NCBI RefSeq assembly: GCF_011769985.2
Contig: NZ_CP039734.2
Span: forward strand, 1,860,001 to 1,924,000
Length of the DNA stretch: 64,000 bases
From: Sulfurospirillum diekertiae
GTDB taxonomy: Bacteria; Campylobacterota; Campylobacteria; Campylobacterales; Sulfurospirillaceae
Reading direction: 5' to 3'
This document shows positions 1-64,000 of this stretch, in pieces. The notes beneath the pieces were generated by a model that worked only from the letters and a program-made list of their open reading frames with translations, was not told the origin of the DNA and did not search any database. The position numbers and the translations under genes are program-made. The stretch's first letter is position 1; every line of letters starts with the position of its first letter.

Positions 1-2312
1 TTTTCATTTTTAAGATCATCAATACGCGCTTTAATATCTCCAGCGCCAAGAACGTCAACGATGAGTTCAACACCGTTTACATGTAAAGATTCTACGGCTT
101 TTCCTGCGTGGGCATTAAGAGATTCAACTTCCGTTTTTAAGGTTTTAATCTCTTCTTTAAGACGGTTAATACCGATGAGTGGCTCTTTGTGTTTGAGACT
201 CTCTTTAATCGCTTCGATTTCAGCTCTAAGGTTTTGGGCATACGCTAACGCCGCACCACCACAAATCGCTTCAATACGCCTCACTCCCGCACTCACACCG
301 CTCTCTTTTAAGATGAAAAAACTTCCAATATTGGCGGTATTGCTGACATGCGTTCCACCGCACAGCTCAATGCTTGCATCGCCAAAACTAACCACACGAA
401 CTTCTGAGCCGTATTTTTCACCAAACAGTGCCATTGCGCCACTGTTTTTAGCTTCCGTTACATTCATTAGTTTAGTTTGCCCCGCAACACCACTGGCAAT
501 GAAGCTGTTCACTAAGGCTTCAATTTTCACAATCTCTTCATTACTCAACGCTTTAGGATGGGAGAAGTCAAAACGTAGACGATCTTTTTCAACCAAACTT
601 CCCGCTTGGCTTACATGATCTCCTAAGACTTTGCGAAGAGCGCTGTGAAGGAGGTGCGTTGCACTGTGATGTTTTTCGATCTCTAAACGTGAGAGATCAA
701 CACTAACACTCACCTCATCATTTACATGTAAAGGCATATCAAGTTCTACCAAAGAGAGATTTAGGTCAAAAAATTTCTTGGTATCAAGGACTTTTCCGTA
801 TCCTTCGATGATACCTTCATCGCCACTTTGTCCACCGCTCATCGCATAAAATGGTGTTTGCTCAAACATGACCCATCCGTTTTCTTCCAAGCTCTGAACC
901 TCTTTGAAGTTTTCATCTAAAAGCGCTAAGACTTTTGTTTTGGCTTCTTTTTGAGTGTAACCCACAAAGGTATTGAGGCCAAATTTTTCAAGAAGCGGTT
1001 TAAACTCACCTTGAGTTGCTTTGTCACCACTGCCTTTCCATGAGGCTTTGGAACGTGCTTTTTGCTCCGCCATCAAAGCTTCAAACTCGGCTTCGTTAAC
1101 GCTTAACCCTTTTTCTCTGAGCATATCAGCTGTCAAATCAAGAGGAAAACCATACGTATCGTAGAGTTTAAACGCCACTTCACCACTAAACATTGTTTTG
1201 GTATTGGGGAGTTCTTTCTCAAAAAGTTCGAGTCCTGAAGCGATGGTCGCAAAGAAGCTCTCTTCTTCGTTTTTGATCTGTTCAGCAATGACCTCTTTTT
1301 TAGTCACAATGTACGGATACTGTTTACCCATCAGATCACACAACGTATCTAAAAGTTTGTACATAAAGGGCTCTCTGAGTCCTAAAAGATAACCATGTCG
1401 AACGGCACGACGAAGGATGCGTCTAAGCACATACCCGCGACCGACACGACCAAAAGTTGTGCCTTGTGCCACAAGAAAGGAAACGGCACGAATATGATCC
1501 GCAATAACACGGTAACTTGCACCCGTTTTGTACGCATAAGGTTTACCACACAGTTCTGCCACTTTGTTGGTGAGAGGAATAAAAAGTGTTGAGTCATAGT
1601 TGCTAAACACACCTTCTTTAACTGCCGTCACACGCTCTAATCCCATACCTGTGTCGATGGAAGGTTTTGGAAGCGGATGAAGGACACCTGCTTTGTCACG
1701 CTCATACTGCATAAACACAAGGTTCCAAATTTCTAAGAAGCGATCACCATCGCCTCCCATGTAGTCTTCAGGCGTGTTAAAGTTCTCTTCCCCTTGATCA
1801 ATAAAAATTTCGCTACATGGACCACACGGACCGGTATCGCCCATTTGCCAGAAGTTGTCTTTATCACCAAAGCGTATAATGCGGCTCGCATCAATATGTT
1901 TTTTCCAAATTGCCTCAGCTTCATCATCGCTCTCATGAACCGTTACCCACAATTTTTCTTTTGGAAGTTTAAGCACTTCGGTCACAAATTCCCACGCATG
2001 CGCAATCGCATCTTCTTTAAAGTAATCGCCAAAAGAGAAGTTTCCAAGCATTTCAAAAAAAGTATGATGGCGCGCTGTATAACCGACATTATCAAGGTCA
2101 TTGTGTTTACCACCCGCACGAATACATGTTTGGCAACTTGTCGCGCGTGGAGGGTTAGGACGAGGAACTTCACCTGTAAAAACACTCTTAAAAGGAACCA
2201 TGCCTGCATTGGTAAACAGAAGCGTCGCATCATCAGGTACAAGTGGAGAACTCTCGACAATCTTGTGACCTTTTTGTTCAAAAAACTTTAAAAACTCTGC
2301 TCTTACGTCCAT
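1..2312 (-). CDS. alaS: alanyl-tRNA synthetase (C-terminus beyond the window)
   Basis: Charges tRNA-Ala with alanine in the cytoplasm and edits mischarged Ser/Gly. Reading the minus strand from the ATG at 2312 gives [16 protein letters not shown], the typical AlaS start. The class II catalytic core follows, then the editing domain with the HSATHLLH zinc motif and the later CGGTH motif. The frame stays open to base 1, so the C-terminal end (roughly the last 80 residues, the C-Ala region) is missing only because the window stops. Two copies of the dispersed palindrome TTTACATGTAAA (76-87, 721-732) lie inside the gene and encode LHVN. Family assignment is firm. Confidence 0.97.
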
Positions 2313-2407
2313 ACTTTCTTTCCTACCGTTATTAAAAATTTATTTATTTTAACGAAAAAACCTAAAGGCTATTATTAAATCCCCTAAAAACAGTCACGAT
2401 ACGATCT

Positions 2408-4360
2408 CTACAATGCACACTGATCGTTTAAGCGATACCCAACAATCCACCAACCTAAAACAACAATGATAGCGCCTAAAAAGCCATTGAACGTTAAAAG
2501 ACAAAAAAGTCCCATGATGATCGCAATCATTCCCAATACATAACTTCCGGAGAGCACACTAAAGATGGCAACCACAATACCCGAAAGCCCTACGTAATTG
2601 AGATAAACCACTTTGCCAAGAAGTGTTCTAAATTGGCATACAGGAAGCATTGGGTCAGCGGCGCACACGTCTATCCATGACTCATTGACAAAGATGCCTT
2701 CTTTCATCGCTACCAAAAGAAGCGCACTTACAATTAAAATCAGAAAAGACTTGGTAATGCCACACAGTTTAGAGGGAGAAAGCCATAAAGTCGAACCAAA
2801 AACCAGCACGCATACAACCCAATTAAGGGCAAAATCATTCCGCGCACTTTCATGCAGTAAGACCGCCAAAGCACAGATAAAAAGTGTCAAACCACTGACC
2901 TTTTCCATCAAGCCATTTAGCTCTTTGCGCTCCGTTGCAAAATAGACCACCGCATAAACCGTAGCGATGATACCTAGCGTTCCAAGCTCAAAGTTGAGAT
3001 ACCTTCCATCAAACGCCAAAGCGAGTGCCATAACAAGCACCACGCTCACACTTAACAGATGCAAGGCATCTTCCCAAAATGTTTCACTTTTAGGTTCACT
3101 CAGTGTTATAACACTCATAAATCGCGCCATAGAACCACGCATCTCTATCTCTTCATCAATGAGAAAACGCACCAGTTTCAACCATAATAAAAAAGCAATA
3201 CTCAGGCACAAAATCGCCCATGCGTACTCTAAATTATTGCGCGAAACGATCCAGTAAGCATTGGCTTGCCATGTGAGCGCCACCGAACCGCCAAAAAGGG
3301 TCGCAAACCAATATGGTGCTTTTTTACATGAACATCGTGGCAATCCCCAAAGCCAAATCAACCCAACCAGACTGAGCGTACAACTGGCGATGAAAAGCCA
3401 AAGAGCATTGGGAAAGTTGGAAACAAAACCATGTAAGATGTGCTTATCCGCCCTATTCGCATCAAATAGCCCCCAAAAACCGCCCACTGCACCTTCACTC
3501 ATACGTTTCCACGGCTGATCGAACGCCTCGATAAAATTGTATTTCCAACCATTCTCTTCCGCCATTTTGACAAAACCGCGCGTGAAGAGCGCTTGGTTCA
3601 CAGCACTGGGGTATGCACTTTCTCTCATACGCCCTTCACTCGGCCAACCTGTCTCCCCAATGACGATCTCTTTGTCAGGGATTTTTTGTTGCATCAACTC
3701 GCGAATATTCTTTACATGTAAAAGCGCTTTGTCCACACTGATGGGCTTGTCTTCCCAGTACGGCAAGATATGAATGGTCACACGATCCACCGCAGGAGCG
3801 ATCTCAGGATGCTTGTTCCAAAACTCCCATACATCTGCATACGTGATGACCATATCAGGCAATGCCTGTTTGACTTCGCCTATGTAACCTACTAGTTGAG
3901 AAGCACTCACATCGTTACGCAAAAGCGCTTCATTTCCGACCACAACTGTTTCGATGATGTCTTTGTTCTCTTTGGCTAAACGAATCGTCGTGTCGATCTC
4001 TTTGCGCGTCAAAGCGGCATCACTGCTCACCCATGCACCCAACCACAGTTTCAGCCCATGTTTACGCGCAATTTCAGGTAACTCTTCAAGCCCAACGCTT
4101 GAGTAAGAACGAATACAACTCGTAATCGTCGCCAAATGCGCCAAATCTTTGTCCATCTGCTCCGTTGAAGGTCGAAACCCTTTAGCGATGTTCATCGGCG
4201 ACTCATCTTTTCCAAAAGGAGCATAAGAGAGACATTGCAGTTTAACATTTGGGTCTAACGTGATAAGGCTAGAAGAAGGCAAAGCCATCCAAAACCAAAA
4301 AAGCCCCAGCGACACAAACATCGCAAGGTAAAAAAGGATCATTTTAAACGTGTGATTCAT
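2408..4360 (-). CDS. membrane-bound GH17-type glycoside hydrolase (beta-1,3-glucan active)
   Basis: The protein has about 650 residues. It starts with a TM helix (about residues 6-27), followed by a GH17-like TIM-barrel domain (about 45-315) and then about ten hydrophobic segments to the C-terminus. The two GH17 catalytic glutamates are visible in VVVGNEAL (E144, acid/base) and IGETGWPS (E236, nucleophile). The start at 4360 is preferred because a GGAG lies ten bases upstream; a longer reading from 4378 is possible. Family knowledge suggests hydrolysis or transglycosylation of beta-1,3-glucans, with the barrel domain outside the cytoplasmic membrane. The true substrate is unknown. A palindrome copy at 3711 encodes LLHVK. 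Confidence 0.8.
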   Translation of the reverse strand: MNHTFKMILFYLAMFVSLGLFWFWMALPSSSLITLDPNVKLQCLSYAPFGKDESPMNIAKGFRPSTEQMDKDLAHLATITSCIRSYSSVGLEELPEIARKHGLKLWLGAWVSSDAALTRKEIDTTIRLAKENKDIIETVVVGNEALLRNDVSASQLVGYIGEVKQALPDMVITYADVWEFWNKHPEIAPAVDRVTIHILPYWEDKPISVDKALLHVKNIRELMQQKIPDKEIVIGETGWPSEGRMRESAYPSAVNQALFTRGFVKMAEENGWKYNFIEAFDQPWKRMSEGAVGGFWGLFDANRADKHILHGFVSNFPNALWLFIASCTLSLVGLIWLWGLPRCSCKKAPYWFATLFGGSVALTWQANAYWIVSRNNLEYAWAILCLSIAFLLWLKLVRFLIDEEIEMRGSMARFMSVITLSEPKSETFWEDALHLLSVSVVLVMALALAFDGRYLNFELGTLGIIATVYAVVYFATERKELNGLMEKVSGLTLFICALAVLLHESARNDFALNWVVCVLVFGSTLWLSPSKLCGITKSFLILIVSALLLVAMKEGIFVNESWIDVCAADPMLPVCQFRTLLGKVVYLNYVGLSGIVVAIFSVLSGSYVLGMIAIIMGLFCLLTFNGFLGAIIVVLGWWIVGYRLNDQCAL

Positions 4361-4520
4361 GCAATTATGCTCCATCATTATTAGTTGCGCGATTATACTA
4401 GAAATGGGTTTAAGGGTTTACATGTAAAGAAATTTAAGATGAAAATTGGCTATTTAGATACAATTATTCAGTTAAATATCGCTTTGAAAATTTTTACATG
4501 TAAAGATAAGGAAAAGATAA
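4361..4520. other. divergent intergenic region with two palindromes
   Basis: This 160-bp AT-rich region between the GH17 gene and a small plus-strand gene holds two exact copies of TTTACATGTAAA at 4417-4428 and 4493-4504, 76 bp apart. No other structure is evident. The second copy sits just upstream of the ribosome-binding site of the gene at 4521. Confidence 0.6.
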
Positions 4521-5467: not shown

Positions 5468-5519
5468 CTTTTTGGTTTCATGCACTTTACATGTAAAGAT
5501 GTGGCATGAAATCAAAAGG
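5468..5519. terminator. bidirectional hairpin terminator with palindrome in the loop
   Basis: An imperfect inverted repeat (5468-5485 against 5501-5519; shared core TTTCATGC / GCATGAAA flanked by A/T-rich arms) sits between two convergent genes. Its loop contains an exact copy of TTTACATGTAAA (5486-5497), itself a perfect palindrome. The T-rich left arm and A-rich right arm would allow termination in both directions. Confidence 0.65.
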
Positions 5520-8789: not shown

Positions 8790-9728
8790 ATGGTTCAAAA
8801 AGCGCTTGTACTTCTCAATATGGGAGGGCCTAACAACCTAGATGAAGTCAAGCTCTTTTTGTCTAATATGTTCAATGACAGCAATATTATCACCGTTAAA
8901 AGCTCGCTTTTACGACGTTTAATTGCTTTCATCATTACCACATCGCGCACAAAACAAGCACAAGCAAACTATGCGAAACTGGGTGGAAAATCGCCCTTAG
9001 TGGGGTACACCCAGCAGCTTGTTGATAAACTCCAAAATGCTCTATCCTCTTTACATGTAAACTTTGCGATGCGCTATACACCGCCCTTTTGCAATGAAGT
9101 CATTGCTGAACTTCAAAAAAAAGGGATTAAAGAGGTCATTTTACTGCCACTATACCCACACTATTCAACGACGACCACCAAGTCTTCCGTTGAGGATTTT
9201 ATGAAAATTGCCAAAACATTAGGCTTCACGGGTAAAATACGCGTTATTGACCATTTTTATGAAGATAAAATGTATAACCTACTTTTAGTCAAAAACATCA
9301 AAGAAGCGCTCGGGGAAAATAATCCTGCCCAAATGGAGCTTATTTTTTCTGCCCACTCGTTGCCTCAAAAAATTATCGCGAATGGGGATCCTTACCAAAA
9401 AGAGATCACATTACATGTAAAGCTTATTGCTGAACTTCTAAGAGAAGAAAATCTTCATTTTAAAGCGATTCATCTCGCCTACCAGTCCAAACTTGGTCCC
9501 GTAAAATGGCTTGAGCCTTCTATGGAAGAGAAGCTAACTTCGCTTGAGAATAAAAATGCGCTCATTGTACCGATTTCATTTACGATTGATAATTCGGAAA
9601 CGGAGTTTGAACTCTGCATGGAGTATGCAGAACTCGCACATAAATTAGGCTTTGATCGTTATATCGTTGCGAAATGTCCCAATGATGATGAGGCTTTTGT
9701 GGAGTGTATTACACACCTTATTGCTTGA
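8790..9728 (+). CDS. hemH: ferrochelatase
   Basis: Inserts ferrous iron into protoporphyrin IX at the end of haem synthesis. The 312 residues begin with the family start KALVLLNMGGP, carry the LPLYPHYS segment and have the metal-binding His in FSAHSLP (H189). The start follows the shared AAAGGCATAA ribosome-binding stretch. The 3' end overlaps the convergent ftsI gene by 11 bp. Two dispersed palindromes (9050, and the 11/12 match at 9410) lie inside and encode LHVN and LHVK. Confidence 0.96.
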   Translation: MVQKALVLLNMGGPNNLDEVKLFLSNMFNDSNIITVKSSLLRRLIAFIITTSRTKQAQANYAKLGGKSPLVGYTQQLVDKLQNALSSLHVNFAMRYTPPFCNEVIAELQKKGIKEVILLPLYPHYSTTTTKSSVEDFMKIAKTLGFTGKIRVIDHFYEDKMYNLLLVKNIKEALGENNPAQMELIFSAHSLPQKIIANGDPYQKEITLHVKLIAELLREENLHFKAIHLAYQSKLGPVKWLEPSMEEKLTSLENKNALIVPISFTIDNSETEFELCMEYAELAHKLGFDRYIVAKCPNDDEAFVECITHLIA

Positions 9729-14048: not shown

Positions 14049-15064
14049 TTGCTATTACGGGTGGAGGAACAGGCGGTCATTTGGTTATCGCCCGTGCTAT
14101 TAAAGAAGAGTTAAACAAGCGCGGACTCAAACCTATTTACATTGGCTCTACTGCAGGGCAAGATCAAACGTGGTTTGAAAATGATAAGGGATTTGAAAAA
14201 ACCTATTTTTTAGAAAGCCGCGGAGTGGTCAACAAAAAAGGGATACATAAAGTCCTTGCTCTCTTTACGATCATTCGCTCAGCCTTTACATGTAAAGCTC
14301 TTTTCAAAAAACATCAGGTTAAGTATGTTTTTTCAGTAGGGGGATATTCCGCTGCCCCTGCTTCATTTGGAGCACTCTTGTGTGGCATACCTCTTTATAT
14401 TCATGAACAAAATGCAATCCAAGGTAAACTCAATTCCCTTTTAAGACCTTTTTCTAAAGCATTTTTTAGCTCTTATGACGCAAAAGCAACTATGACGAGT
14501 TATCCCGTGAGTGAAACTTTTTTTAAGAGTCGAAGAGAACGATCGGATCTTAAAACAATCATCTTTTTGGGAGGAAGCCAAGGAGCAACCTTTATTAACC
14601 ACCTAGCGCTTAAAATGGCAAAGCTTTTGCAGCAAGAAGGCATTGCTATTATTCATCAAACAGGAAAGAAAGAGTTTGAGCAAATGAAAAAATTTTACGA
14701 AGATGAAGGTATTTTAGCGGACGTGTTTGATTTTTCTAACGCAATCCCTGAAAAACTTGCACGTGCTGACTTTGCCATTAGTCGTTCAGGTGCAAGCACA
14801 TTATGGGAACTTTGTGCAGCAAATGTGCCCGCATTATTTATCCCTTATCCTCATGCAGCTGCAAACCACCAACACTTTAATGCAAAAGCACTCGCTGATC
14901 AAAAAGCAGCACTTATCCTTCCCCAACAAGATATTGATCCAGTAGCACTTTTAACCCATATTAAAAGTATCAATCTTTCAAATGTTTCCAAAAAATTATC
15001 TCAACTCATTCATGATGGTGGAGCTCAAGAAATCGTCGACTTTATGTTACAACCCAAAAAATAA
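14045..15064 (+). CDS. murG: UDP-GlcNAc:undecaprenyl-PP-MurNAc-pentapeptide GlcNAc transferase
   Basis: Makes lipid II from lipid I at the inner face of the membrane. The 339 residues include the N-terminal glycine loop ITGGGTGGHL, the second FSVGGYSAAPA glycine motif, the IHEQNA loop and the UDP-GlcNAc site (FLGGSQGA; ISRSGASTLWEL). The gene overlaps ftsW by 4 bp. An exact palindrome at 14285-14296 encodes FTCK in a variable position between the two N-domain motifs. Confidence 0.97.
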   Translation: MIAITGGGTGGHLVIARAIKEELNKRGLKPIYIGSTAGQDQTWFENDKGFEKTYFLESRGVVNKKGIHKVLALFTIIRSAFTCKALFKKHQVKYVFSVGGYSAAPASFGALLCGIPLYIHEQNAIQGKLNSLLRPFSKAFFSSYDAKATMTSYPVSETFFKSRRERSDLKTIIFLGGSQGATFINHLALKMAKLLQQEGIAIIHQTGKKEFEQMKKFYEDEGILADVFDFSNAIPEKLARADFAISRSGASTLWELCAANVPALFIPYPHAAANHQHFNAKALADQKAALILPQQDIDPVALLTHIKSINLSNVSKKLSQLIHDGGAQEIVDFMLQPKK

Positions 15065-15073
15065 GGAGAACCC

Positions 15074-15532: not shown

Positions 15533-15583
15533 ACGAAGTGGTGCGCCCGAAGGAATTCGAATCCCTGACCTCCGGTACCGCAA
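15525..15583. repeat. attL: left 59-bp attachment repeat
   Basis: Identical to 26582-26640. It spans the last 8 bases of the acetyltransferase gene and the 3' half of tRNA-Arg (from the anticodon loop to the CCA end), typical of tyrosine integrases that cross over in the anticodon region. It is not a functional tRNA because the 5' half is missing. Confidence 0.93.
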
Positions 15584-27618: not shown

Positions 27619-28003
27619 ATTCTTGCTCATAGACTTCATCTAGAAGCTCAATAAAACTCACAGGTTCAATGTATCCAGCAAAATCATCTATAATTTTAAG
27701 ATCTTTTGGCGATAAGATCAAATTGGTAGGAAAATACTTTACATGTAAGGCTTGAGGTAACTCGGGATTTTCTCGATTGATAGTTACATGTAAATATTTT
27801 TTTTCAATCTGATTACGATATAGTGCATTTTCAAAGACATCTTTTTCCATTTTAATACAATAAGGGCAAAACTCTTTTGTCACACTTAGTAAAATTAATT
27901 TTTTTTCGTTAAGTGCCTTTTTACGTTCAGCTTCCAAAAAATCAGCGTGCAATGAGAGTGTGCCTAATAGAAATATGATTAAAACACAAATCCATTTTTT
28001 CAT
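27611..28003 (-). CDS. exported thioredoxin-like protein (SoxW/DsbD-C type)
   Basis: A signal peptide (residues 1-20) is followed by a thioredoxin fold with active site CPYC (C46, C49) and a cis-Pro-like KYFPTNLIL loop. 130 residues. Probably a periplasmic thiol reductase. Its ATG overlaps the stop of the DMT transporter gene. Two TTACATGTAA copies (27739, 27784) 45 bp apart encode LHVK and LHVT. Confidence 0.88.
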   Translation of the reverse strand: MKKWICVLIIFLLGTLSLHADFLEAERKKALNEKKLILLSVTKEFCPYCIKMEKDVFENALYRNQIEKKYLHVTINRENPELPQALHVKYFPTNLILSPKDLKIIDDFAGYIEPVSFIELLDEVYEQEFK

Positions 28004-44378: not shown

Positions 44379-44602
44379 TTCAATTCCTTAGACTATTGTT
44401 GATGATGCATGTATGATTTCTCATAGTTACATGCACTCTATTGATGTTGAATCGTGTCATCGCCCACAAAAACCACTCTTTCAAAAGACTCTTTCCCTTT
44501 TGTCGAGTGCTATCGTAGAGTAAGTGTGAGACAAAAACTGTCAAAAAGCGAGGTAAAAATAGAGAGAAATTGGATAGTTGAGATGTTTACATGTAAAAAG
44601 AT

Positions 44603-46373: not shown

Positions 46374-47014
46374 AGTTGTCTCCTTGTGTCATATTTCAGA
46401 TAAACACCATTTTTACATGTAAAGTCTTCCGCATGAAGTATTTGTTTTAAAAAAAGTTCTGCTACAAAACAGTTTATACTAGCTCTTAACGGTTCTAAAA
46501 GATCGCTACTCAGAGCAAAATGACTTCGCAACGGTGTATGCAAATAGCTCAAACTCGGATCAAACCCTCGCATATACAGTTTTGCCGTAATAGCATAATA
46601 CGAAAGAGTATAGATATAACTGAGCATCGCATTTATAGGATCAAGCGGAGGATTTTTGCTACGAAATCCTTTAGTAAGCGATTTTTCAAATAGTGAAAAA
46701 TAGTGAGCAAAGTAACGCTTTGCAAATGCTCCTTCAATACCCATGACCTCTTCTATACTTTGAGCTAATGCTAAATGGGTTAATGTTTCATCAATGCTTA
46801 TTGTTATATCAAAATGCTCCAATGAGGCTTTATGTGTTGTAAATTTATCAAAAAGCAATTTTTTTGCAATCGAAAGATTATTCGATAAATTGGCATACTG
46901 AAGTGCTTTTAACTCTCCATTCTTTGCCATAGCAGGTAATGTCAATGCAAACTGTTTGCTGTCTTTCGTAAGGTATAAAATAGGCACATTGGCGTTGGCT
47001 GTCAAACGAACTGC
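46271..47014 (-). pseudogene. cas1: cas1, 3' part (interrupted by IS21-family element)
   Basis: Contains the C-terminal helical domain of Cas1 with all three catalytic elements: Glu in MGIEGAFAKRYF, His in GFDPSLSYLHTP and Asp in SSDLLEPLR. The N-terminal part is at 49088-49262. Joining the parts after removing the IS and one 4-bp target copy gives 915 bases, 305 codons in frame, a normal Cas1 of 304 residues. A TTG near 47000 could start a truncated protein without the N-domain, which is unlikely to integrate spacers. A palindrome at 46412 encodes FTCK. Confidence 0.9.
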
Positions 47015-49046: not shown

Positions 49047-49087
49047 GTTTCAATTCGCAACTTTTTTACACTATAAACTGACCAGTT

Positions 49088-49769: not shown

Positions 49770-50101
49770 TAAAAATCCTTTTACTTTTTTTATAAATACC
49801 TAATTCAACCGCCCTGTAATGGATCGATAAGTAGCATAATAAACAATAGATGCGACAAAAACTGTCAAAAATAGAAAATTATGCACAAAAAGCGAAGAAA
49901 ATAAAAAAGTGAAAAGATAGCAGTCATTTTACATGTAAGATTTTGAGAGTCTACTACGGTAAAGGCACGCTGACAATACATCATTTGAACAAAAAAGGTT
50001 TTGCACGTACCATCAAGTTTGTTTCAATCCCCTTATAATCGGGTCAGTATGTCATTTCTTACATGTAAGGTTTTGACATATTAAAACTTGGAACTCTTTC
50101 G
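49770..50101. other. intergenic gap between effector and adaptation genes
   Basis: 330 bp holding two TTACATGTAA copies (49929 and 50059), the orphan CRISPR repeat and, on the plus strand, a 40-codon open stretch (about 49907-50035; ILRVYYGKGTLTIHHLNKKG) that could be a gene remnant. This is the only sizeable gap in the cas operon. Confidence 0.5.
50021..50055 (-). repeat. orphan CRISPR repeat inside the cas operon
   Basis: 34 of 35 bases match the array repeat (one change, A to C, three bases from the right end). It has the same orientation as the arrays, so a minus-strand cas transcript would contain it in the form that Cas6 recognises. No second repeat or leader is beside it. Confidence 0.93.
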
Positions 50102-51106
50102 TTAGCCTTGTTGAGCCAAGGCTTTTTGGAGCTCTGTTTTGTAGAGTATTCTCAGCTCTTTGGGTTCTAAAATTTCTAGCTCAGGAAGCCACTGTTTAAC
50201 AAACGGTAAAATTTCGATTGGTTGGGTATAGTCTACACTAAAGATCACACTACCATCACTTGGTGCTTCAATAAATTTCTGCGATGCAAAAAATGGTTTC
50301 ATCTCTTTTAAAAAGTAACGGCGGATGGAAGGTGATGCTTTTAAAACCGCTGTTTTGAGTGCCACACCTTGCAAACTCATCGCATTTTGCATACTCTCAA
50401 AATAGTAGCGGTACTTCGCAAGAACATGCTTTTGATAGGTCGTTTTGGCGGAATAACGTACCTCTTTGATAAATGCAATCCGCAAAAGCCTTAACTCTTC
50501 ATTTGCTGTTTCAATGGCAAGATACCAGTTGTTATTGGTAAAAATGAGCTTGAGGCATTTGACACTTTCAACTGTTTCTTCATTGTCATAACGATAGATA
50601 ATCGTTCGATACTCGTGATGTTTAACGGCAATTTTTAGTTGAGAGAAGAGACGTTCATGCTCATCTTGCAAATTTTCAAAAGGGTTCGACTTAAAAAGAA
50701 ACACCTCTTTATCTTGAGCGATGGCTTGCTCTATCGCCTCTTTTTCACTCAATGAGAGTTGTTTTAAAAATCTAGGATTATTCTCATTAATAAGCGTTAA
50801 AATCCAACTAAGCTCATTGCTCTCTTCAAGGAAAAAACGCAATGTTTTCGAAATGTCTTGTTCTTTATTGGGGACACGATAAACCGATACTTTTTTGCCG
50901 TGAAGATACTTTTGTTTTTTTTCAGAAACGAGAATGTCCCCATACAAACGGTGAATATCTTCTAAATAACGCCTAAGTGTGCGTTCATTCACCCCAAGCT
51001 CATCTAAAATGCGTTCATTTTGAGGGTAGAGCTCTTCTCCCTCGTAAAGCTTTTGCATCAGCGTAAAAATGTGAATAATCTTCTTCTCAGTTGTTGTACT
51101 TTTCAT
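50102..51106 (-). CDS. WYL-domain transcriptional regulator
   Basis: 334 residues: N-terminal winged HTH (ERILDELGVNERTLRRYLED), a WYL-type ligand domain (about 145-210, with NNWYLAIETANEELRLLRI) and a WCX-like C-terminus. WYL proteins often regulate CRISPR and other defence loci and may sense nucleotides or nucleic acid ends. Its start overlaps the csx20 stop by one base. It probably controls the cas operon. Confidence 0.88.
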   Translation of the reverse strand: MKSTTTEKKIIHIFTLMQKLYEGEELYPQNERILDELGVNERTLRRYLEDIHRLYGDILVSEKKQKYLHGKKVSVYRVPNKEQDISKTLRFFLEESNELSWILTLINENNPRFLKQLSLSEKEAIEQAIAQDKEVFLFKSNPFENLQDEHERLFSQLKIAVKHHEYRTIIYRYDNEETVESVKCLKLIFTNNNWYLAIETANEELRLLRIAFIKEVRYSAKTTYQKHVLAKYRYYFESMQNAMSLQGVALKTAVLKASPSIRRYFLKEMKPFFASQKFIEAPSDGSVIFSVDYTQPIEILPFVKQWLPELEILEPKELRILYKTELQKALAQQG

Positions 51107-51489
51107 CAGGCGTCCTCATACTCTCTAAATCTTACATGTAAAAACTCTCGCTGTGTCACCACAGAGCCATCAACCATCTTTTGTGTCGCAACGCGCTTCG
51201 TGGTTGCATAAAGCGGAGTAAGTCCTAATTTTTTCGCAAAACAGACCATATGGTAGGTCGCTCCAAAGTCTCCTTGCACCAGAAGATAATCGCCTCTACT
51301 GGCGTCTTTTAAAAGCCTACTTTTATACGACGCTAAGGCAGTTATAATGCTTGAGACGTCAGGATCAAATGATGACCAGTTGGTATCATTGAGTGAAATA
51401 ATCTTCTCAATACCTAGTACTTCATGCGCTTGACTTATTTGAGAAGGTAACATCTCATGGTTCATAAGCACAAATAATTTTTTTATCAT
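51106..51489 (-). CDS. csx20: Csx20, putative cyclic oligoadenylate ring nuclease
   Basis: 127 residues with the Csx20 pattern: an N-terminal FVLMNHEMLPSQ, the SRGDYLLVQGDFGATYHMV block (about 64-82), then LYATTKR and the final REFLHVRFREYE. Csx20 is thought to be a CARF-related ring nuclease that ends type III signalling. A palindrome (51132) encodes the LHVR of the last conserved block. It belongs with the two CARF effectors upstream. Confidence 0.82.
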   Translation of the reverse strand: MIKKLFVLMNHEMLPSQISQAHEVLGIEKIISLNDTNWSSFDPDVSSIITALASYKSRLLKDASRGDYLLVQGDFGATYHMVCFAKKLGLTPLYATTKRVATQKMVDGSVVTQREFLHVRFREYEDA

Positions 51490-51558
51490 TAACTCTCTTT
51501 TTCATTAGTTTATAGCGACGTACTAACAAACAGTGTCTTTTACTTCATTATTTTTGGA

Positions 51559-53088
51559 TTATTTAAAATCTTGATAAAACGCGTCCATATAATGCCTTGC
51601 TTCTTTTGGATCATTTTTATGCTCAAAGTAGTGATACAATATATCAATTAACCTATGCTGTTTTTCACTCATATTTTTAGGTATATTCCATTGAGGTGGA
51701 ATCTCTTTTTGATAGAGTTTTAAAATGCGTTTCTCTTCAAAAACATTTTTAAATAACACAAAAGGAAATAACTTTAAAAACATTGTATTTGCTTTGAGTT
51801 CAAACAGTGTATAGTCGTATTGACAAGGGGGAGATGTTCTGTCACTAGGTTTGATTGTGGCAAATAAATTTTGTTCAAAAACAAGAGTGTGAAATGTTGC
51901 AAAAAGCATCTCTAGTGTTGAAGTAATCGTTTCATGAGCATTTTCACCATACGCATGAGCAAAATCATTGCGAAGTTGACGCATTTTTTGTTGCAACGAG
52001 GAAAACGCATCAAAAACAACTTTGTTAGAACACACAAAATACGCATCAATTTCTTCTGACATCAATGTCGAATCACGTTTGCCTTTTTCAATAAAATCCA
52101 TCATCGATTTTGTCACATGATACGCATCTGTCCCTGATGGAATACACAGGAGTTTTTTGGAATGCAATATATTTTGAATATAAAGTGGTAGCGCTTCATT
52201 AATAATCGTAATGGCATTTAGTAAATACCCCTTTTCAAGGAGTAATTTTCCAATTTTATAATAACGTTCATAATCTGCTTTTTTAGAAATAGCTTCCAAA
52301 TTGATAAGATGTAACCGTATGCCACTTAAAAGCTCTTTGAGCGCTGCTACATGAGGATCAGAATCTAATTCCTCAATCTTTTCTCGTATTTGCCTTGGCA
52401 ACTCTCTTTCGAAGAGCGTTTGAATGGCATTCGATAAGATATGTTGACTAAAATCTCTTAAAATTTCAAGTAATGGCTTATAGCGATCCGTTCGAAGGAC
52501 GATAGAGCGAGCAATCGTATAGTTATCTTTAAAAGAGACAAGTGCGTATGCAATGGTTGCAATATCAAGATATTCATTGAGATCAATAATTTTATAATGC
52601 TTAGATGGTATCACTTCTTGAGCAAAGAGAATATGTTTTATTTTTTCAGGAGATTTGAGATGATTGACCAAAAGGCTTACTAATGTTAAAAGAGGTAAAT
52701 GGCGAAAGCCATGGGAAAGATCAATAATGACTTCATCATGCTCCCTGAGTAATTGATTGACGGTGGAAAAATATGCTTCAAACGCTGTATCATCGATGAA
52801 TTCAAACGAGCACTTTGTAACATCAAGCCCTTCAAAGGACAATACTTCTTTTTGAATTTTTTCAGCAGAAGCCGTTGCGAGTGCAATGATTTGATGCTCT
52901 TTGGCAAACGTATCAACCAGCAAAGGCAGCATGTTAATATATGTTTCTTTTGGAGGAGCTATGAGGTATTGCAAAGAGAGATCAACATCATAAACCGCTT
53001 TATCAGCGTCTGTTTTTTGAATAAAACTCTTTTCATTAGGATTTGGTTTGGTGGTACCTATCATGCCACATATAGAGATAATTGTCAT
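51559..53088 (-). CDS. CARF-HEPN ribonuclease (Csx1-like, DxTHG family)
   Basis: 509 residues. The N-terminal CARF domain has the Rossmann start IISICGMIG and the ligand-binding motif DLSHGFRH (123-130), the DxTHG signature with Ser for Thr. The C-terminal HEPN domain has the R-x4-H active site RNDFAH (R373, H378). By family, cyclic tetra-adenylate binding activates non-specific RNA cleavage, causing dormancy or death. It lies 15 bp downstream of the membrane CARF gene. Confidence 0.88.
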   Translation of the reverse strand: MTIISICGMIGTTKPNPNEKSFIQKTDADKAVYDVDLSLQYLIAPPKETYINMLPLLVDTFAKEHQIIALATASAEKIQKEVLSFEGLDVTKCSFEFIDDTAFEAYFSTVNQLLREHDEVIIDLSHGFRHLPLLTLVSLLVNHLKSPEKIKHILFAQEVIPSKHYKIIDLNEYLDIATIAYALVSFKDNYTIARSIVLRTDRYKPLLEILRDFSQHILSNAIQTLFERELPRQIREKIEELDSDPHVAALKELLSGIRLHLINLEAISKKADYERYYKIGKLLLEKGYLLNAITIINEALPLYIQNILHSKKLLCIPSGTDAYHVTKSMMDFIEKGKRDSTLMSEEIDAYFVCSNKVVFDAFSSLQQKMRQLRNDFAHAYGENAHETITSTLEMLFATFHTLVFEQNLFATIKPSDRTSPPCQYDYTLFELKANTMFLKLFPFVLFKNVFEEKRILKLYQKEIPPQWNIPKNMSEKQHRLIDILYHYFEHKNDPKEARHYMDAFYQDFK

Positions 53089-53103
53089 TATTTTTCTTTT
53101 AAC

Positions 53104-53886
53104 TTAATTTGCTTCACTATAGCGTATGTCATACGTTTTTATCTGATAATCTGATGTTGAGACATACTCCAACTCTTTATCATTTGGTATGGCAAAAATG
53201 GCAGATGCTAAAGTAACCACTTTGGTGCCTCCTGTAATATCTATCATGATCTCTTTATGTTTGTATTTAGCCTTTGCTAAGTCTTGATAAAGTGTTTCTA
53301 AGAGCTCATACACAGCATTACCATCTTCAAAATCAATCACAGAAGGTGTTTGTTCTATCATCGAAATATCACATGTTGGAAGAAGCTTTTGCACAAGGTT
53401 TTTAAAAGGTTCATAAATATTTTGTGAATCTTCTGAGCAAATAACAATGACCTTTTTAAGCCTCGTTTTATGATGATTAATCGCAAGTAATGGCATACGA
53501 AAATTATTACGCTCTAATTCATCAATACTATTAACGTGCAATACCTCATGTACTTTTGGATTTGCGCTCAAGAAAAGGATAAGTACTTTAGAGGCTTGAG
53601 GAGAAGGTTCGATTTCAATATCAACAGTAGGGACATAGCTTTTGGATAGATTTTTAATAAAAAACATAAGCCAAACTAAAAGCCCACTGGATATAAGTAG
53701 TTGACAAAAGACTTTCACTTTATCTTCCTCTTTAACGCCCGCAACGACCTCAATTAAGCCATCAGGAAGCCATGAAGCAATAATCATTAAAATGATTGCA
53801 ATAAGGGCACCCCTTATGGAGAGTGTATTAGAACCAATAAAAGAGGCAACAATCTTTTGTGCCTCACGTTTATGAAATCGTGTCAT
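53104..53886 (-). CDS. two-TM membrane protein with CARF domain
   Basis: 260 residues. Two TM helices (about 26-44 and 58-79) are followed by a cytoplasmic CARF-like domain (about 98-260) with KVLILFLSANP, KKVIVICSED and the nucleotide-binding motif DITGGTK (216-222). The arrangement is like Cam1-type CARF membrane effectors, which alter membrane potential on cyclic oligoadenylate binding, but with two predicted helices. It overlaps the large RAMP gene by 4 bp. The channel or stress role is inference. Confidence 0.78.
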   Translation of the reverse strand: MTRFHKREAQKIVASFIGSNTLSIRGALIAIILMIIASWLPDGLIEVVAGVKEEDKVKVFCQLLISSGLLVWLMFFIKNLSKSYVPTVDIEIEPSPQASKVLILFLSANPKVHEVLHVNSIDELERNNFRMPLLAINHHKTRLKKVIVICSEDSQNIYEPFKNLVQKLLPTCDISMIEQTPSVIDFEDGNAVYELLETLYQDLAKAKYKHKEIMIDITGGTKVVTLASAIFAIPNDKELEYVSTSDYQIKTYDIRYSEAN

Positions 53887-55946
53887 TTATAACTCCTCAT
53901 GTTTAACACTTCTAAATAAAGTTTACCTACTTCTTGATCATTCAAATGACCATTATTGTATTGATGAATCATGCGAATTAACTCTATAAAAGAGTGATTA
54001 TCTTTCAATTTCAAATAAATTTGCTGTTGATCTGTTGGGGTAGTTTGAAATGCACCTTTTAAAAATTCTTCTATTTGATGAGGATGATAAAAAATGCCAA
54101 ATACTCTTTGCCATGCTTCTGTAATGGTTTTTCGCATCTTTGTTTTTGAAATAATATCAGATGTAGCCACTTGGATAGCCTGTTGTTTTTGAGGAGATGG
54201 ACTCGTGAAAGTGACAGATACTATATTGTCTAACTTGGAATAGTTTTTTAAATAGCCATTAATCTTGTCATTTTTAGTTTGTGCAAAATCTGCTAATTCC
54301 ATATAACTTAATTGCGAATTTCTTTGATTGTCTTGAGGAGTCGCCATTGTAAGAAGCTCTTTAAGAATATTGCTACTCATCCAGTTATTAATATTTTCCT
54401 TCATCAGTGTTTCAAACTCTTGTAAATATTGTTCTTTATTAGGGTAATGAATTGCGACATTGATTTTCCCATACCCTAATGATTTACCAAGCCCAACATT
54501 ATGAAATGTATTTGGGGTACTGTGAAATATAAGAGCAGAGAGCAAAGCGCCTATTTCACATTTTTTTAAATTGTGGTATCTCATTTTACCTTTAAAAATA
54601 ACACCTTCTTTCAAAGGTTTAAAAGATGTCCCAATGGAACTAGTTGGATTATAGGATATTTTACTTTCATCAGGATTGTTTTTGTGGATTGGATACCGTT
54701 TTCGTCCGGCTAGCACAAAATTATCATTCATAAAGGTTGAGTAGAGCTTCTCATCTTCTTGGAAGATATAAAAAGGATAAAATGATGCTCGTGGTGTTCC
54801 TAAATTTTCAGTTCTTGGGGCTAATTTAACTATTTTTGTTTTATCAATCGCTTTAAAATGACTAAATTGGACTCGACCTTTTAGAGCAGTATCATTATTT
54901 ACATAGCCAAAGAGTGTTTGTGCTAAATCTAGTTTTTTTTCAAAGTGTGACTTGAAGATTCCATCGTGAATACTTCCGTTATAGGGCAATTTGTAGAGGT
55001 AAGAAAGACCAAAATGCTTAATGATTGTTTGGTTTTGACCATTGCTATCTTTTCTCATCTCTTTTTGAAAAAATACGGGTACTTTTTGTCCATTAGCGAG
55101 TTTTTCTTTCCAATATTTCCAATCTGGCGATTCTTTTGGCTCCGTTTTTCGTCCATCAAAATAAGCAAATTTGAAATTTTCCATTGTTTCTTTTGATAGT
55201 GTTATCTCACCTATTGCATTAAAAAAAACAAATTCATATATTTTTCCATCACCCATTCGCCCATTATCTTTACGTGCACTTGCTTGTCCCGTTAGCACCA
55301 ATGTACCTTCTAATTTTGTACCTTTGGTGTAGATTTTTTTGCCTTGAGCTTCTTTGGAAAAATCAAATTTTTGTGTTAATTCAATATTGAGTTTTTTTAA
55401 AAGATCATATTTGTATTTAGCAGTTTTAAAGTCTGGTTTGTTAATAAAACCACCTTGTTGTGCTTTAAATTTAGATCCAAAATCTTTATGGATATTATCT
55501 TGTGAAATTCTTCCCACAACACCACAGTCTTCAATTTTATAATCGTTCCCAACTTTTTTTAACCATCCACAAAAAATTTCTTGTGGTTTCATTCGATTCA
55601 TATACAAATCTCGATTACGCAAATCTCGAATAGAGTATGTTTTATCATCGACCATATCTGGATTCATTTTACTAAAACTTATAATTTCAAGTACACTTCG
55701 CACCATCCCTTTGACTGTGGTTGATGGGATATAATATTCTCCATTATACTGGCAAAATTCTTCTGAAGGTTTATCTCTCTCATCACTATGATTTCGAATG
55801 AAGATGGGGCTTTTAGCCGTAATCGTAATGTCTATTTCCCCGCTTTCACTGTCTTCAAACGGTATATCGTGACTCACATCTTCACTCCATGATGGATAAA
55901 AAACTTCTTTATTGAGTGGTACAAAATTGTAAGGTGCTGTTATCAT
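53883..55946 (-). CDS. large multi-RAMP protein (TIGR03986-like)
   Basis: 687 residues, the largest subunit of the locus. A RAMP-type opening (DITITAKSPIFIRN), the conserved YIPSTTVKGMVRSVLEI helix after the Gly-rich start and a second RAMP-like part (LGKSLGYGKINVAIHYP, about 505) are visible. It matches the layout of TIGR03986-type RAMP proteins of III-D systems, likely the backbone or target-binding Cas7-like subunits fused together. Coupled by 4-bp overlaps on both sides. Confidence 0.75.
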   Translation of the reverse strand: MITAPYNFVPLNKEVFYPSWSEDVSHDIPFEDSESGEIDITITAKSPIFIRNHSDERDKPSEEFCQYNGEYYIPSTTVKGMVRSVLEIISFSKMNPDMVDDKTYSIRDLRNRDLYMNRMKPQEIFCGWLKKVGNDYKIEDCGVVGRISQDNIHKDFGSKFKAQQGGFINKPDFKTAKYKYDLLKKLNIELTQKFDFSKEAQGKKIYTKGTKLEGTLVLTGQASARKDNGRMGDGKIYEFVFFNAIGEITLSKETMENFKFAYFDGRKTEPKESPDWKYWKEKLANGQKVPVFFQKEMRKDSNGQNQTIIKHFGLSYLYKLPYNGSIHDGIFKSHFEKKLDLAQTLFGYVNNDTALKGRVQFSHFKAIDKTKIVKLAPRTENLGTPRASFYPFYIFQEDEKLYSTFMNDNFVLAGRKRYPIHKNNPDESKISYNPTSSIGTSFKPLKEGVIFKGKMRYHNLKKCEIGALLSALIFHSTPNTFHNVGLGKSLGYGKINVAIHYPNKEQYLQEFETLMKENINNWMSSNILKELLTMATPQDNQRNSQLSYMELADFAQTKNDKINGYLKNYSKLDNIVSVTFTSPSPQKQQAIQVATSDIISKTKMRKTITEAWQRVFGIFYHPHQIEEFLKGAFQTTPTDQQQIYLKLKDNHSFIELIRMIHQYNNGHLNDQEVGKLYLEVLNMRSYK

Positions 55947-56329
55947 TTTCTATCTCCTGCAAAACCTGCAAAAACAACTTTTTTGAGTTTAAGTACGGGT
56001 ATATTTTCACAAAGTAGGTCGTTCTCTTCTTCCCAAACCTGAGCCATTTTTATCTTAAGGCTTTGCTTCGCATCATATATTTGGGTGTCGATAAGCGAAA
56101 CATCTTTCGTCTCATCCACAAACCACACATCGTTCATCTGACGAATGGCAATGGAATCTTTTCCATTAAAAAAATGTGCCTCATAAATAAATCCATTTTG
56201 AGGGGAAAAAGTAATCGTGCTAGGCGTTGTCCAAATATCTTTGATGGGAGCATCGCTCATCTGGATATACCCTTCATAGCCTTTGAGTGTATTGATATAC
56301 TCTATGATTTCAATTTGATTTTTTTTCAT
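55943..56329 (-). CDS. small type III-associated protein (TIGR04423-like, tentative)
   Basis: 128 residues: GYEGYIQMSDAPIKDIW, TITFSPQNGFIYEAHFFNGK, then SIAIRQMNDVWFVDET. The pattern resembles the small III-D associated family TIGR04423. It could substitute for the small subunit, since no Csm2/Cmr5-like gene is present. It overlaps both neighbours by 4 bp. Confidence 0.6.
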   Translation of the reverse strand: MKKNQIEIIEYINTLKGYEGYIQMSDAPIKDIWTTPSTITFSPQNGFIYEAHFFNGKDSIAIRQMNDVWFVDETKDVSLIDTQIYDAKQSLKIKMAQVWEEENDLLCENIPVLKLKKVVFAGFAGDRK

Positions 56330-57582
56330 AAGGCTACTCCATTTTTAGTGATAGTTCCTAAAAAGATGCCATGACCTTTTGTTGTTGCTCCACCAAGTGG
56401 AAGCATCCCTGTTGTCACGTCTTTTAATGCTAGCTCAAACGCCTCTAATTCTTTACCTTGAATATCGCTGTGCACTAAAAGTTCAATTTCATACCATTTC
56501 TCATCGTTTGCAACTGTTTTTTCTTGAAAAAGAGCACCTTCCATAGCTCCACCCGTAAAGCGATCAATACTTACATGATCAAATGTTTTGGTTTTGCCAT
56601 GATCGTTTTTAAAACAGTCTGTAATAAGAATTTTTCCTTTTGCGCCATCTATGTTTTGCTTGCTATTTTTTGCCGCACCAAAGAGTGTGCTAACAGAGTC
56701 AACACCGTTGCCAGCTTCAATTGTATTGCCATGTAGCTTATTGTAATGATACGTTGTACGATGGGCTAAAGCTCCTTTTATAGAAGAGGCAGGTATTAGT
56801 ACTTTTTTCTCGCTCAATGCGCGTTTCTCATAATCAATGACCTGTTCATATACGGGTGTCATATCGGCATCATTGTCACTAAAACCACTTCCAAACATAA
56901 AAAAGTCATCAGGTTTTAATTGAAGTATATAAGGGGTGTAATCTTTACATGTAATGGTTTCAAGATTGCATTCTTTATCTCCACCAAGAGGTTTATTGAG
57001 TGAGCTTGAATATTTTTCAATGTCAAAAAGTCCATACTCAATCTCTATCATTTTAAATTTTCCGAACCCTTTGGTACTTCCACCACCCAAGCGAAAATTA
57101 GAACTTCTTAAAAGTCCTATTAACTCCATAAAGAGCTCTTTATTATTATCGATAAATTCAATGCTAAATTTGAAGCGTGTTCCTTTAAAAACGACTTCTT
57201 CATCAAATTTTGCACCTTTTTGCGTTGTTCCTTTGGATGTTATCTTGGTGTGTTCGCGGAGGGGAAGGTTCTCAAAAAGCTTTAAAAAATCTGATTTTTG
57301 AACACATAAATCTTCATAGACCATCCCTTGTGTATCTGCGATTAAAAGTGCATTTGAGATAATGATTTTGGAGCCATTATTTAGCCCGAAAACATCTGCT
57401 GCTTTATCACCATGAAACTCTTTTCGTAAAACGCCCGCTATGGACGTTCCTAAAATCATCGGTAATCCATTCCAATCTTTTTGTACAGGAGAATCTTGGA
57501 GAAAGTCCATTGCATTACTACCCATTTTAAGTGGCGTTTGCGCTTCAATGACAATATGAGCTCTGTATCGTTTATTCATCAT
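56326..57582 (-). CDS. fused double Csm3/Cas7-like RAMP protein
   Basis: 418 residues with two RAMP units. Unit 1 (about 1-190) has APLKMGS-type strand (VIEAQTPLKMGSN), the ILGTSIAGVLRKEF helix and the glycine loop RLGGGSTKGFGKF. Unit 2 (about 215-418) repeats these as FMFGSGFSDND, PASSIKGALAHRT and LPLGGATTKGHGIF. Probably two consecutive Cas7 backbone subunits with target-RNA cleavage sites. A palindrome (56945) encodes ITCK between the units. The second of two Met codons (57579) may be the start. Confidence 0.8.
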   Translation of the reverse strand: MMNKRYRAHIVIEAQTPLKMGSNAMDFLQDSPVQKDWNGLPMILGTSIAGVLRKEFHGDKAADVFGLNNGSKIIISNALLIADTQGMVYEDLCVQKSDFLKLFENLPLREHTKITSKGTTQKGAKFDEEVVFKGTRFKFSIEFIDNNKELFMELIGLLRSSNFRLGGGSTKGFGKFKMIEIEYGLFDIEKYSSSLNKPLGGDKECNLETITCKDYTPYILQLKPDDFFMFGSGFSDNDADMTPVYEQVIDYEKRALSEKKVLIPASSIKGALAHRTTYHYNKLHGNTIEAGNGVDSVSTLFGAAKNSKQNIDGAKGKILITDCFKNDHGKTKTFDHVSIDRFTGGAMEGALFQEKTVANDEKWYEIELLVHSDIQGKELEAFELALKDVTTGMLPLGGATTKGHGIFLGTITKNGVAL

Positions 57583-61753: not shown

Positions 61754-61894
61754 TTAACTCTCCCCATAAAGATAATAAGTATTAAGCCAAAAAGAGTATT
61801 ACAGCTTGCTTAGTTAGGTATGCTATTTGTAAAAAAGGAGAAAAGATACGGCAAATTTTTTAAGATAGTTGCCTCCCATGGTTTCTTACATGTA

Positions 61895-62407
61895 AGCAAT
61901 GATGATGTTAAATCGGGTCAATATGTAATGTAACAGAAGTTGAGCATACAACTGCATATTAGTTTCAATCCCCTTATAATCGGGTCAGTATGTAATTGGT
62001 TTTTTCTATGCCAATCTCTCTTCTTCTGGTAGTTTCAATCCCCTTATAATCGGGTCAGTATGTAATTTATCAAGGAGAATAAATGATTGTTTCATTTATG
62101 GTTTCAATCCCCTTATAATCGGGTCAGTATGTAATTGGATCAGCAGCAGAATAAAACAATCTTTTTAAGGTTTCAATCCCCTTATAATCGGGTCAGTATG
62201 TAATCTGAAGCGGTAATGGAGAATTTGGAAGGTCTCTCGTTTCAATCCCCTTATAATCGGGTCAGTATGTAATCAAAAGACGCAAGATCTGCAGAAATTT
62301 TAAAAAGTTTCAATCCCCTTATAATCGGGTCAGTATGTAATCAAAATGCTATCGTACAACGATCCAATTGAAGTTTCAATCCCCTTATAATCGGGTCAGT
62401 ATGTAAT
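61895..62407 (-). CRISPR. CRISPR array 2: 8 repeats, 7 spacers
   Basis: Same 35-bp repeat as array 1; spacers are 31-35 bp. The leftmost repeat (61895-61929) is badly decayed (only the last 19 bases match, with one change), marking the distal end. The leader is on the right, so transcription is leftward. A TTACATGTAA palindrome overlaps the decayed repeat edge (61886-61895). Confidence 0.97.
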
Positions 62408-63399: not shown

Positions 63400-63477
63400 C
63401 GTTAATCCTTCCATGTTTTTGTTTTATGCTTTATAAATTATAGAACAAATTGTTCTAAAACACCAATGGGAAATGTC

Positions 63478-64000
63478 TTATTCCCCTTTTTTATACTCCA
63501 GTTGTTTATCGGTATGTATCAACGTAAAGCTCTGTGCAGGGTTAGCACTGTTTTTACATGTAAAGGTCTCTTGATTCATAAAAACATTGATCGTTGGTGG
63601 ATTCATAGTCTCTAAACGCATAAAAAGATATTCATCCATCGTAATAGGTTTAAATTGTGTTAAGGCATTCGAAACAAAGAGTTCACCGCCATGATAGGTG
63701 CAGTACTTCTGAGCTCCAGTAATACGTTCGTATCTCCAAGGAAAAACAGAGCTATTTTTCTCCAAGTCGAGTAAATCCTCGAACGAAGTGTACTTCGATG
63801 AAATTTGGGCATATTTTGTGCCTTTTAGCCATGTTTTTAAGCCAAGGCTTTGTGCTTTATCGTGTTGAATCAGATAAAAACGTGAATAGGTCTCTTTTAG
63901 ATCTCGTTTATTGCCAAGAATGGCACTTTGATGTAACTCAACGTTATCTTTCATGGAAACGATGGAAAAACCATCATTGGGTGAGAGGCATTGGTAAAAT
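63478..64000 (-). CDS. hypothetical protein, 5' end beyond the window
   Basis: An open frame continues from the first internal ATG (63954) upstream to base 64000 without a stop, so the start is probably outside the window. At least 174 residues, soluble, with GTKYAQISSKYTSFEDLLDLE and YERITGAQKYCTYHGGEL. A palindrome (63553) encodes FTCK near the C-terminus. No family is recognised. Confidence 0.65.
   Translation of the reverse strand, partial: FYQCLSPNDGFSIVSMKDNVELHQSAILGNKRDLKETYSRFYLIQHDKAQSLGLKTWLKGTKYAQISSKYTSFEDLLDLEKNSSVFPWRYERITGAQKYCTYHGGELFVSNALTQFKPITMDEYLFMRLETMNPPTINVFMNQETFTCKNSANPAQSFTLIHTDKQLEYKKGE

Follow-up and report, generated by a model that had tools for sequence, protein, structure and literature searches.

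A highly iterated palindrome in Sulfurospirillum and its association with a solitary D12-class adenine methyltransferase

What highly iterated palindromes (HIPs) are for has been a question since the description of HIP1, the word GCGATCGC of cyanobacteria. As far as the cited portions of the HIP1 literature go, HIP1 is accompanied by solitary methyltransferases of its core GATC, its outermost bases are the most variable, and the repair ratchet proposed by Elhai requires mismatch repair (PMC4390886). Here we describe a second, independent case, the 10-bp palindrome TTACATGTAA, in a 64,000-nucleotide stretch of Sulfurospirillum diekertiae (hereafter the window, meaning the whole stretch; NZ_CP039734.2, positions 1,860,001 to 1,924,000), in the rest of the genome and in its relatives. 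The iteration of the word, its exactness, its dialects, the constraint on it as DNA, and its loss or depletion in four Sulfurospirillum genomes lacking a D12-class methyltransferase are observed. What this adds to the cited parts of the HIP1 text is a series of close genomes in which the word is maintained, decaying or gone, alongside the loss of one solitary methyltransferase. Tentatively, and with less than even confidence, we read TTACATGTAA as a genome-wide, methylation-licensed self-DNA signal whose reader is most likely the uptake machinery of natural transformation.

Like HIP1 in those portions, TTACATGTAA is an exact and hugely over-represented palindrome, found clade-wide with losses and replacements, most variable at its outermost bases, and linked to a solitary methyltransferase of its core, which is GATC in HIP1 and probably CATG here. 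It is unlike HIP1 in being AT-rich and longer, in having hosts in which no MutL was found, in being strongly enriched behind genes, and in offering a series of enzyme losses with neutral decay. The uptake signal sequences (USS) of Pasteurellaceae and DNA uptake sequences (DUS) of Neisseriaceae occur about once per 2 kb, are biased to the core genome, are enriched behind genes, form hairpin pairs and differ as dialects between related taxa, and TTACATGTAA resembles them in each of these respects. It departs from them in being palindromic and in that its inner one-mismatch forms are not over-represented, as such forms are in the uptake sequences of Haemophilus and Neisseria according to the cited part of PMC1939737.

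Two methyltransferase systems of the same phylum are also close. Campylobacter jejuni takes up only RAATTY-methylated DNA, RAATTY (printed RATTY in one paper) being the site of CtsM both in this species and in C. coli, as stated in the cited sections of PMC8468864 and PMC10046745. Both would pair a palindromic core with an adenine methyltransferase that marks it; RAATTY is short, with ~28,000 copies per genome, whereas TTACATGTAA has 10 bp and is rare by chance. In Helicobacter pylori, M.HpyI is a universal, facultatively solitary CATG adenine methyltransferase, and the cited sections of PMC10423294 and PMC4450513 describe no iterated 10-bp word for that species; we liken it to the present system through an annotation name. 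Searches of the open-licence literature gave, among the papers listed, no description of TTACATGTAA or of such a palindrome in Sulfurospirillum. A comparative genomics study of the genus is silent on it in the sections available (PMC8865925), and the available main text of Elhai (PMC4390886) does not mention CATG, Arcobacter or Campylobacter.

Iteration and layout of the word

The initial annotation, made from the window alone, had reported 19 copies of the 10-bp core, lying both in and between genes. Both points were borne out: 19 sites were counted against 0.13 expected, 0 of 100 dinucleotide shuffles reached this number, and 12 of the 19 lie inside predicted open reading frames (ORFs) and seven are intergenic. 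At 11 of the 19 the word extends to the 12-mer TTTACATGTAAA. The TTACATGTAA sites, to which no strand is assigned, are as follows.

77..86, in ORF 61-618, FTCK frame
722..731, intergenic
3712..3721, in ORF 2408-4378, LHV frame; exact in 8 of 11 aligned relatives' loci
4418..4427, intergenic, 76 bp ahead of the site at 4494..4503
4494..4503, intergenic
5487..5496, flanked by convergent ORFs
9051..9060, in the ferrochelatase gene hemH, LHV frame
9411..9420, in the ferrochelatase gene hemH, LHV frame
14286..14295, in murG, FTCK frame
27739..27748, in the thioredoxin-like ORF 27611-28003, LHV frame
27784..27793, in the thioredoxin-like ORF 27611-28003, 45 bp after the site at 27739..27748
44587..44596, in a doubtful ORF of 66 amino acids (44454-44654)
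46413..46422, in cas1, FTCK frame
49929..49938, intergenic
50059..50068, intergenic, behind a WYL-domain ORF
51132..51141, in csx20, LHV frame
56945..56954, in a type III RAMP-like ORF, reading ITCK
61886..61895, intergenic
63554..63563, in ORF 63478-63954, FTCK frame

The copies in the MurG and Cas1 genes had been pointed out before, as had the site-free stretch from 14,296 to 27,738 and the absence of the word from both ribosomal RNA (rRNA) operons, and all of this is confirmed. The claim that genic copies keep to the two stop-free frames says less: the ORF sites of the window do divide into 6 LHV and 6 xTCK, but the rule is close to trivial because Tyr-Met-stop is what the third frame of TTACATGTAA encodes. 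Across 464 kb of own sequence, the three frames were counted 82, 43 and 3 times. The two rRNA operons lie in tandem on the same strand (28946-40028). The type III CRISPR (clustered regularly interspaced short palindromic repeat) genes at 46271-57582, encoding Cas1, Csx20 and RAMP proteins, bear TTACATGTAA, and the integrated element does not.

The whole-genome count and Markov comparison suggested earlier place the word far above expectation, as is typical of the HIP class. The own genome (2,777,717 bases in two contigs; its FtsW, encoded in the window, matches that of S. diekertiae JPD-1 at 100% identity) contains 1,220 copies, and the reversed word, used as control, 8. In a 444-kb chromosome sample, TTACATGTAA is the top 10-mer on the counted strand with 178 copies, the runner-up palindromic 10-mer having 21; the Markov expectation is 0.6 at order 3 and 22.7 at order 5, an order that has already learnt the word. 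The repetition is also exact. In 492 kb of own sequence, 204 exact sites were found against 1.0 expected, with 16 inner one-mismatch forms against 26 expected and 27 outermost-base mismatches against 3.9, so that deviations sit at the outermost positions, as in HIPs. The graded over-representation of one-mismatch forms that marks USS and DUS was not seen, inner forms being at background in the own genome, G017 and G026. T is preferred in the flanks and C further out, giving CTTTACATGTAAAG, and the two half-sites and flanking sides vary independently.

The layout of the sites was analyzed in 464 kb, with ORFs taken as simple longest-first predictions. Predicted coding sequence has 0.31 sites per kb (128 in all) and the remainder 1.73 (63 in all). 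Between convergent genes the density rises to 5.84 per kb, against 0.87 between divergent ones, and many of the sites follow a stop codon by 2 to 40 bases. Neighboring sites at most 31 bp apart form 9 pairs against 2.5 expected. Six of the nine close pairs were folded and all six gave stable hairpins. Two nearby copies of a palindrome will to some extent fold in any case, and the surplus of such pairs carries more weight than their folding. One of the two close pairs in the single stretch scanned matched the terminator consensus. An RNA hairpin at single sites was rejected, and a DNA site is favored over it, because the flanking bases do not covary. Against the numbers expected at chromosome density, the mobile DNA examined is poor in sites: plasmid pSDIE1 has 4 where 16.9 are expected, the examined half of the own plasmid has 1 where 8.9 are expected, and the integrated element of the window has 0 where 5.6 are expected. 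The rRNA operons have 0 against 5.0.

The word was proposed as a lineage-specific, HIP1-like signature, and its distribution agrees with this. It belongs to one family, with 0-6 copies in 23 genomes of other families of the same order. All 22 further genomes counted from genus g1 of our set, which we took as Sulfurospirillum, carry it at 49 to 1,496 copies (within this set, G000 is the own genome, G021 is S. cavolei and G017 is the metagenome-assembled genome (MAG) UBA2217). Over the 44 family genomes, counts of the 12-mer TTTACATGTAAA run from 0 to 792. The sister genus g4 uses the dialect CTACATGTAG, with 17 to 220 copies in 9 of 10 genomes and 1 in the tenth, G025; CTACATGTAG has 225 copies in G036 of genus g5 and 0 to 7 in Sulfurospirillum. 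The g4 change is identical on both arms and therefore matches the expectation for a site read by a symmetric protein. In S. cavolei, the half-sites TTACATGT and TGACATGT both occur. G025 has an excess of TATCATGA (77 against 15.6 expected in L026-L030, L145, L183 and L195), mainly in coding sequence, together with a depletion of ACATGT; either codon use or a weak dialect may lie behind this.

Constraint on the DNA and loss of sites

Conservation by protein sequence alone had been named as the finding that would count against a genome signature, and it does not account for the sites. Among positions with a conserved amino acid, 97% of codons inside the site are identical (n=265) against 56% of those beside it (n=2,936), which indicates that the word is kept as DNA and not via the protein. 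In aligned pairs, which include reciprocal and repeated comparisons and are not independent, the exact word is kept in 54% of site comparisons at 60-70% flank identity (n=448; control 10-mers 3%) and in 88% at 80-90% flank identity (n=154; controls 19%). For own sites against site-rich relatives, the word is exact in 72% of coding (n=114) and 59% of intergenic comparisons (n=17), with controls at 8% and 5% (n=22 for the intergenic controls).

The best-sampled loss is that of G009, a close relative in which most proteins at or near a secretion-like locus share 78-96% identity with the own ones, two fast ones being at 63 and 68%. No exact site was found in 28 comparisons (0/25 in another count). 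Synonymous identity at its former sites (59%, n=27) is about that of the flanks (55%, n=573). Amino-acid identity at former sites is 56% (n=48), below the 81% of the flanks (n=729), with p ~0.0002, residue and codon p values here using counts rebuilt from rounded percentages with no correction for kinship or for reuse of one site across relatives. The released proteins have moved off the residues that TTACATGTAA imposed. No substitute palindrome was seen in G009, where none among the best listed was above ~5-fold.

Other genomes retain traces of the word. In G010 and G020, relics persist as inner one-mismatch forms (13 against 7.9 expected and 14 against 5.4). The residue shift is not seen in G020, where site residue identity (77%, n=39) equals that of the flanks (76%), and in G010 the values are 71% (n=42) and 65%. 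In G011, which was judged on its low count because the sample is too small for the relic test, 168 copies remain, and 0 of the 5 sites in the sample are exact.

A solitary D12-class methyltransferase

No PF01555 or PF00145 match was found in the own genome; PF02086 (D12) is represented twice, by one chromosomal and one plasmid gene. The chromosomal D12 protein has 325 residues and is encoded at L133:9818-10795 (G000:C1:2481817-2482794) within a conserved gene row, next to genes for a transglutaminase-like protein, an 84-residue protein without match, a response regulator and an allophanate-hydrolase C-terminal domain. Among two genes on each side, no restriction enzyme was found by Pfam. In G009, G020, G010 and G011, the row is otherwise present and D12 is missing from it. 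A profile search found no D12 in G010, G020 or G011 and, in G009, only weak partial matches inside a different 686-residue frame. Trees of the row, which are single-locus with several weak nodes, group G010 and G011 together (support 100) and keep G009 and G020 apart, suggesting about three losses of D12.

D12 was found in 17 of 24 Sulfurospirillum genomes. Sites are decayed or depleted in 4 of 5 near-complete genomes without it and in 0 of 16 with it (Fisher p 0.0008; this and the p values below ignore kinship). Absence was counted only at ≥90% completeness and presence in any genome, such that 21 of the 24 were used; two of the 16 are 86-88% complete, and G015, G022, G005 and G003 among them were classed by count alone. 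Left out were G001 (86%) and G018 (77%), site-rich genomes in which no D12 was found, and G006 (78%), whose D12 is broken by unknown bases. With all 24 genomes the table is 17, 0, 3, 4 (p 0.003). S. cavolei was classed as maintained because its forms shift to TGACATGT; with this genome taken as decayed, the table is 15, 1, 1, 4 (p 0.004). A rank test, with the same-species G065 out and G006 in, gave p 0.002.

The specificity of D12 is probably CATG, judging from its relatives and from the words themselves. What the CATG-type words share is the bases CATG, and a phage homologue of D12 (39% identity) is annotated as an 'ulcer associated adenine specific DNA' methyltransferase, which we take to be the annotation of hpyIM. 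M.HpyI targets CATG, according to the cited parts of PMC10423294 and PMC4450513. Of the other orphan methyltransferase classes, the two covered by the search were rejected as the common factor: PF01555 is not in the own genome and PF00145 is not in G000, G015, G010, G020, G028 and G035 among others.

Possible functions of the word

Because the word is kept in relatives and decays in several genomes without D12, it probably labels self DNA. In the mechanism we propose, the solitary D12-class adenine methyltransferase, probably CATG-specific, would mark the core of TTACATGTAA, and a second component, the putative reader, would recognize the marked ten bases. Most likely the reader would be the apparatus by which DNA is taken up in natural transformation, which would then prefer marked DNA from kin. 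Sites would then be kept up by selection or uptake-driven replacement acting on the DNA and not on the encoded protein, and loss of the methyltransferase would make the signal useless and let sites decay neutrally. CATG specificity, methylation as the cause of upkeep and the link to uptake are the inferred parts of this scheme. An exchange signal would account better than an essential role in the chromosome for the evenness of the density, the rarity of sites in mobile DNA, their position behind genes, the dialects and the neutral loss in a close relative. The competence machinery to be expected of a host of uptake sequences is in place, with ComEC in 41 of 44 family genomes and a type II secretion-like F protein (T2SSF) in 12 of 12. 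A 293-residue protein of the secretion-like locus (L010, 18955-19836) shows 28-63% identity among relatives and evolves faster than most of its neighbors; it is a candidate reader of TTACATGTAA.

Several observations weigh against this proposal. The UBA2217 MAG G017 has 934 well-maintained sites and no D12 was found in it; the neighboring gene a11 is missing too and an assembly gap is possible, while a gap at a contig end was unproven, as 29 stretches including the ends of 13 contigs held no part of the row. The incomplete G001 and G018 likewise bear sites with no D12 found. In other genera, sites occur without a D12 of this family in G026, G028, G036 and G060, and G025, G033, G034 and G062 carry a D12 and few sites; outside Sulfurospirillum, other methyltransferases may mark CATG, or the link may be indirect. 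The decaying G010 has the same site density (153 per Mb) as the D12-bearing S. cavolei (152). Inner one-mismatch forms are not enriched, unlike those of the Haemophilus and Neisseria uptake sequences. ComEC and the secretion-like locus are present in the motif-less G009 and G025; being kept there, both were rejected as the lost factor, and these genes neither support nor exclude uptake. In favor of the proposal, D12 homologues occur in 5 of 6 further genomes whose sampled loci showed CATG-centered palindromes (G067-G071, not G072). These loci were picked after the words had been seen, and the only controls free of CATG words searched outside the family, two Campylobacter, have a distant homologue.

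The initial annotation had suggested methylation, repair or chromosome organization as purposes. Methylation has gained circumstantial support, from the D12 link and the constraint on the DNA. With regard to chromosome organization, TTACATGTAA could be the binding site of a chromosome-organizing or nucleoid protein with a 10-bp dyad, an explanation that is unlikely yet keeps some weight. Dyad symmetry, independent half-sites and strong constraint would all suit such a protein, as would an even spread along the chromosome (mean 8.6 and variance 6.9 in 20-kb stretches). An origin-to-terminus bias, which had been suggested as a check, is however absent (23 stretches, Spearman -0.09, p 0.68, with a GC-skew flip near 1.28 Mb used to set the origin at position 1). 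The neutral loss in the close relative G009 also argues against it, as it suggests that the sites are dispensable.

Unlikely to about the same degree is an uptake sequence that works by a receptor only, in which a pilin-like or periplasmic protein would read the bare palindrome and the D12 losses would be coincidental or secondary. The sites are laid out like uptake sequences, their half-sites vary independently, as for a symmetric reader, and they persist without D12 in G017, G026, G028 and G036. The association of decay or depletion with D12 absence in near-complete Sulfurospirillum, at p 0.0008 or at 0.003-0.004 under other choices, speaks against coincidence.

A Chi-like recombination hotspot for AddAB or RecBCD-type processing is improbable: the high density of sites in the chromosome and their rarity in the two plasmids sampled would fit, whereas dyad symmetry and the methyltransferase link would be left unexplained, and the known Chi sites are, to our knowledge, not palindromic and only modestly over-represented. 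Still more improbable is a functionless HIP-type by-product, in which methylation-directed mismatch repair biases mutation toward the word (Elhai 2015). It would accommodate the methyltransferase link and the confinement of mismatches to the outermost base, as in HIP1. However, MutL was above the cut-off in 0 of 10 genomes (five with weak fragment matches) against 11 of 14 control genomes, in a search that covered MutL of the MutS/MutL pair, which weakens a repair purpose; moreover, the sites resist change, yet the residues they imposed were abandoned after site loss in G009. Chance, composition or protein constraint is already refuted by the 1,220 copies against 8 of the control and by the same-codon and intergenic rates given above.

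If TTACATGTAA is a methylation-dependent uptake licence, HIP sequences would be tied to natural transformation, a species barrier would exist in a group of organohalide-respiring bacteria, and a practical route to transform them would be suggested. A possible but rather doubtful extension is that self-DNA licensing is Campylobacterota-wide, with solitary methyltransferases of the D12/CtsM family and iterated palindromes co-evolving as a methylation-dependent uptake signal that has dialects and erodes neutrally after enzyme loss. Such licensing would use CATG-centered words (TTACATGTAA, CTACATGTAG, TKACATGTMA and TTCATGAA) in Sulfurospirillum and its relatives and AAATTT-centered ones in Campylobacter, and, if true, would explain HIP-type sequences as methyl-licensed exchange signals. 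A D12-class homologue in Campylobacter concisus (368 residues, L257) is ~30% identical to the own D12, and C. gastrosuis has a distant one as well; by family and length, the transformation methyltransferase CtsM is the probable identity of the C. concisus protein.

Some further words and genes were noted. AAATTT, which is one form of RAATTY, was counted 194 times in 25 kb of C. concisus (L078, L257), the expectation being 33.7; its core is sharp and its outer bases vary more freely. In the Campylobacterales MAG M2_metabat1_scaf2bin.234 (L102, genome G068), the CATG-centered TTCATGAA occurs 8 times in 15.9 kb against 0.37 expected, and the D12 homologue of this genome is split across two contigs. 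The Campylobacteraceae MAG Gsp477_bin146 (L084) has 8 copies of TACATGTA in 13 kb, the outer bases being free, and a close D12 homologue in its genome. GTCTAGAC in L082 (16 in 21 kb) was set aside, since 14 copies precede the same six bases and it looks like a CRISPR-type direct repeat. The plasmid D12 of S. diekertiae ACSTCE (L205, L227, pSDIE1) is annotated as short pieces, and the own plasmid copy is an open frame of 346 residues.

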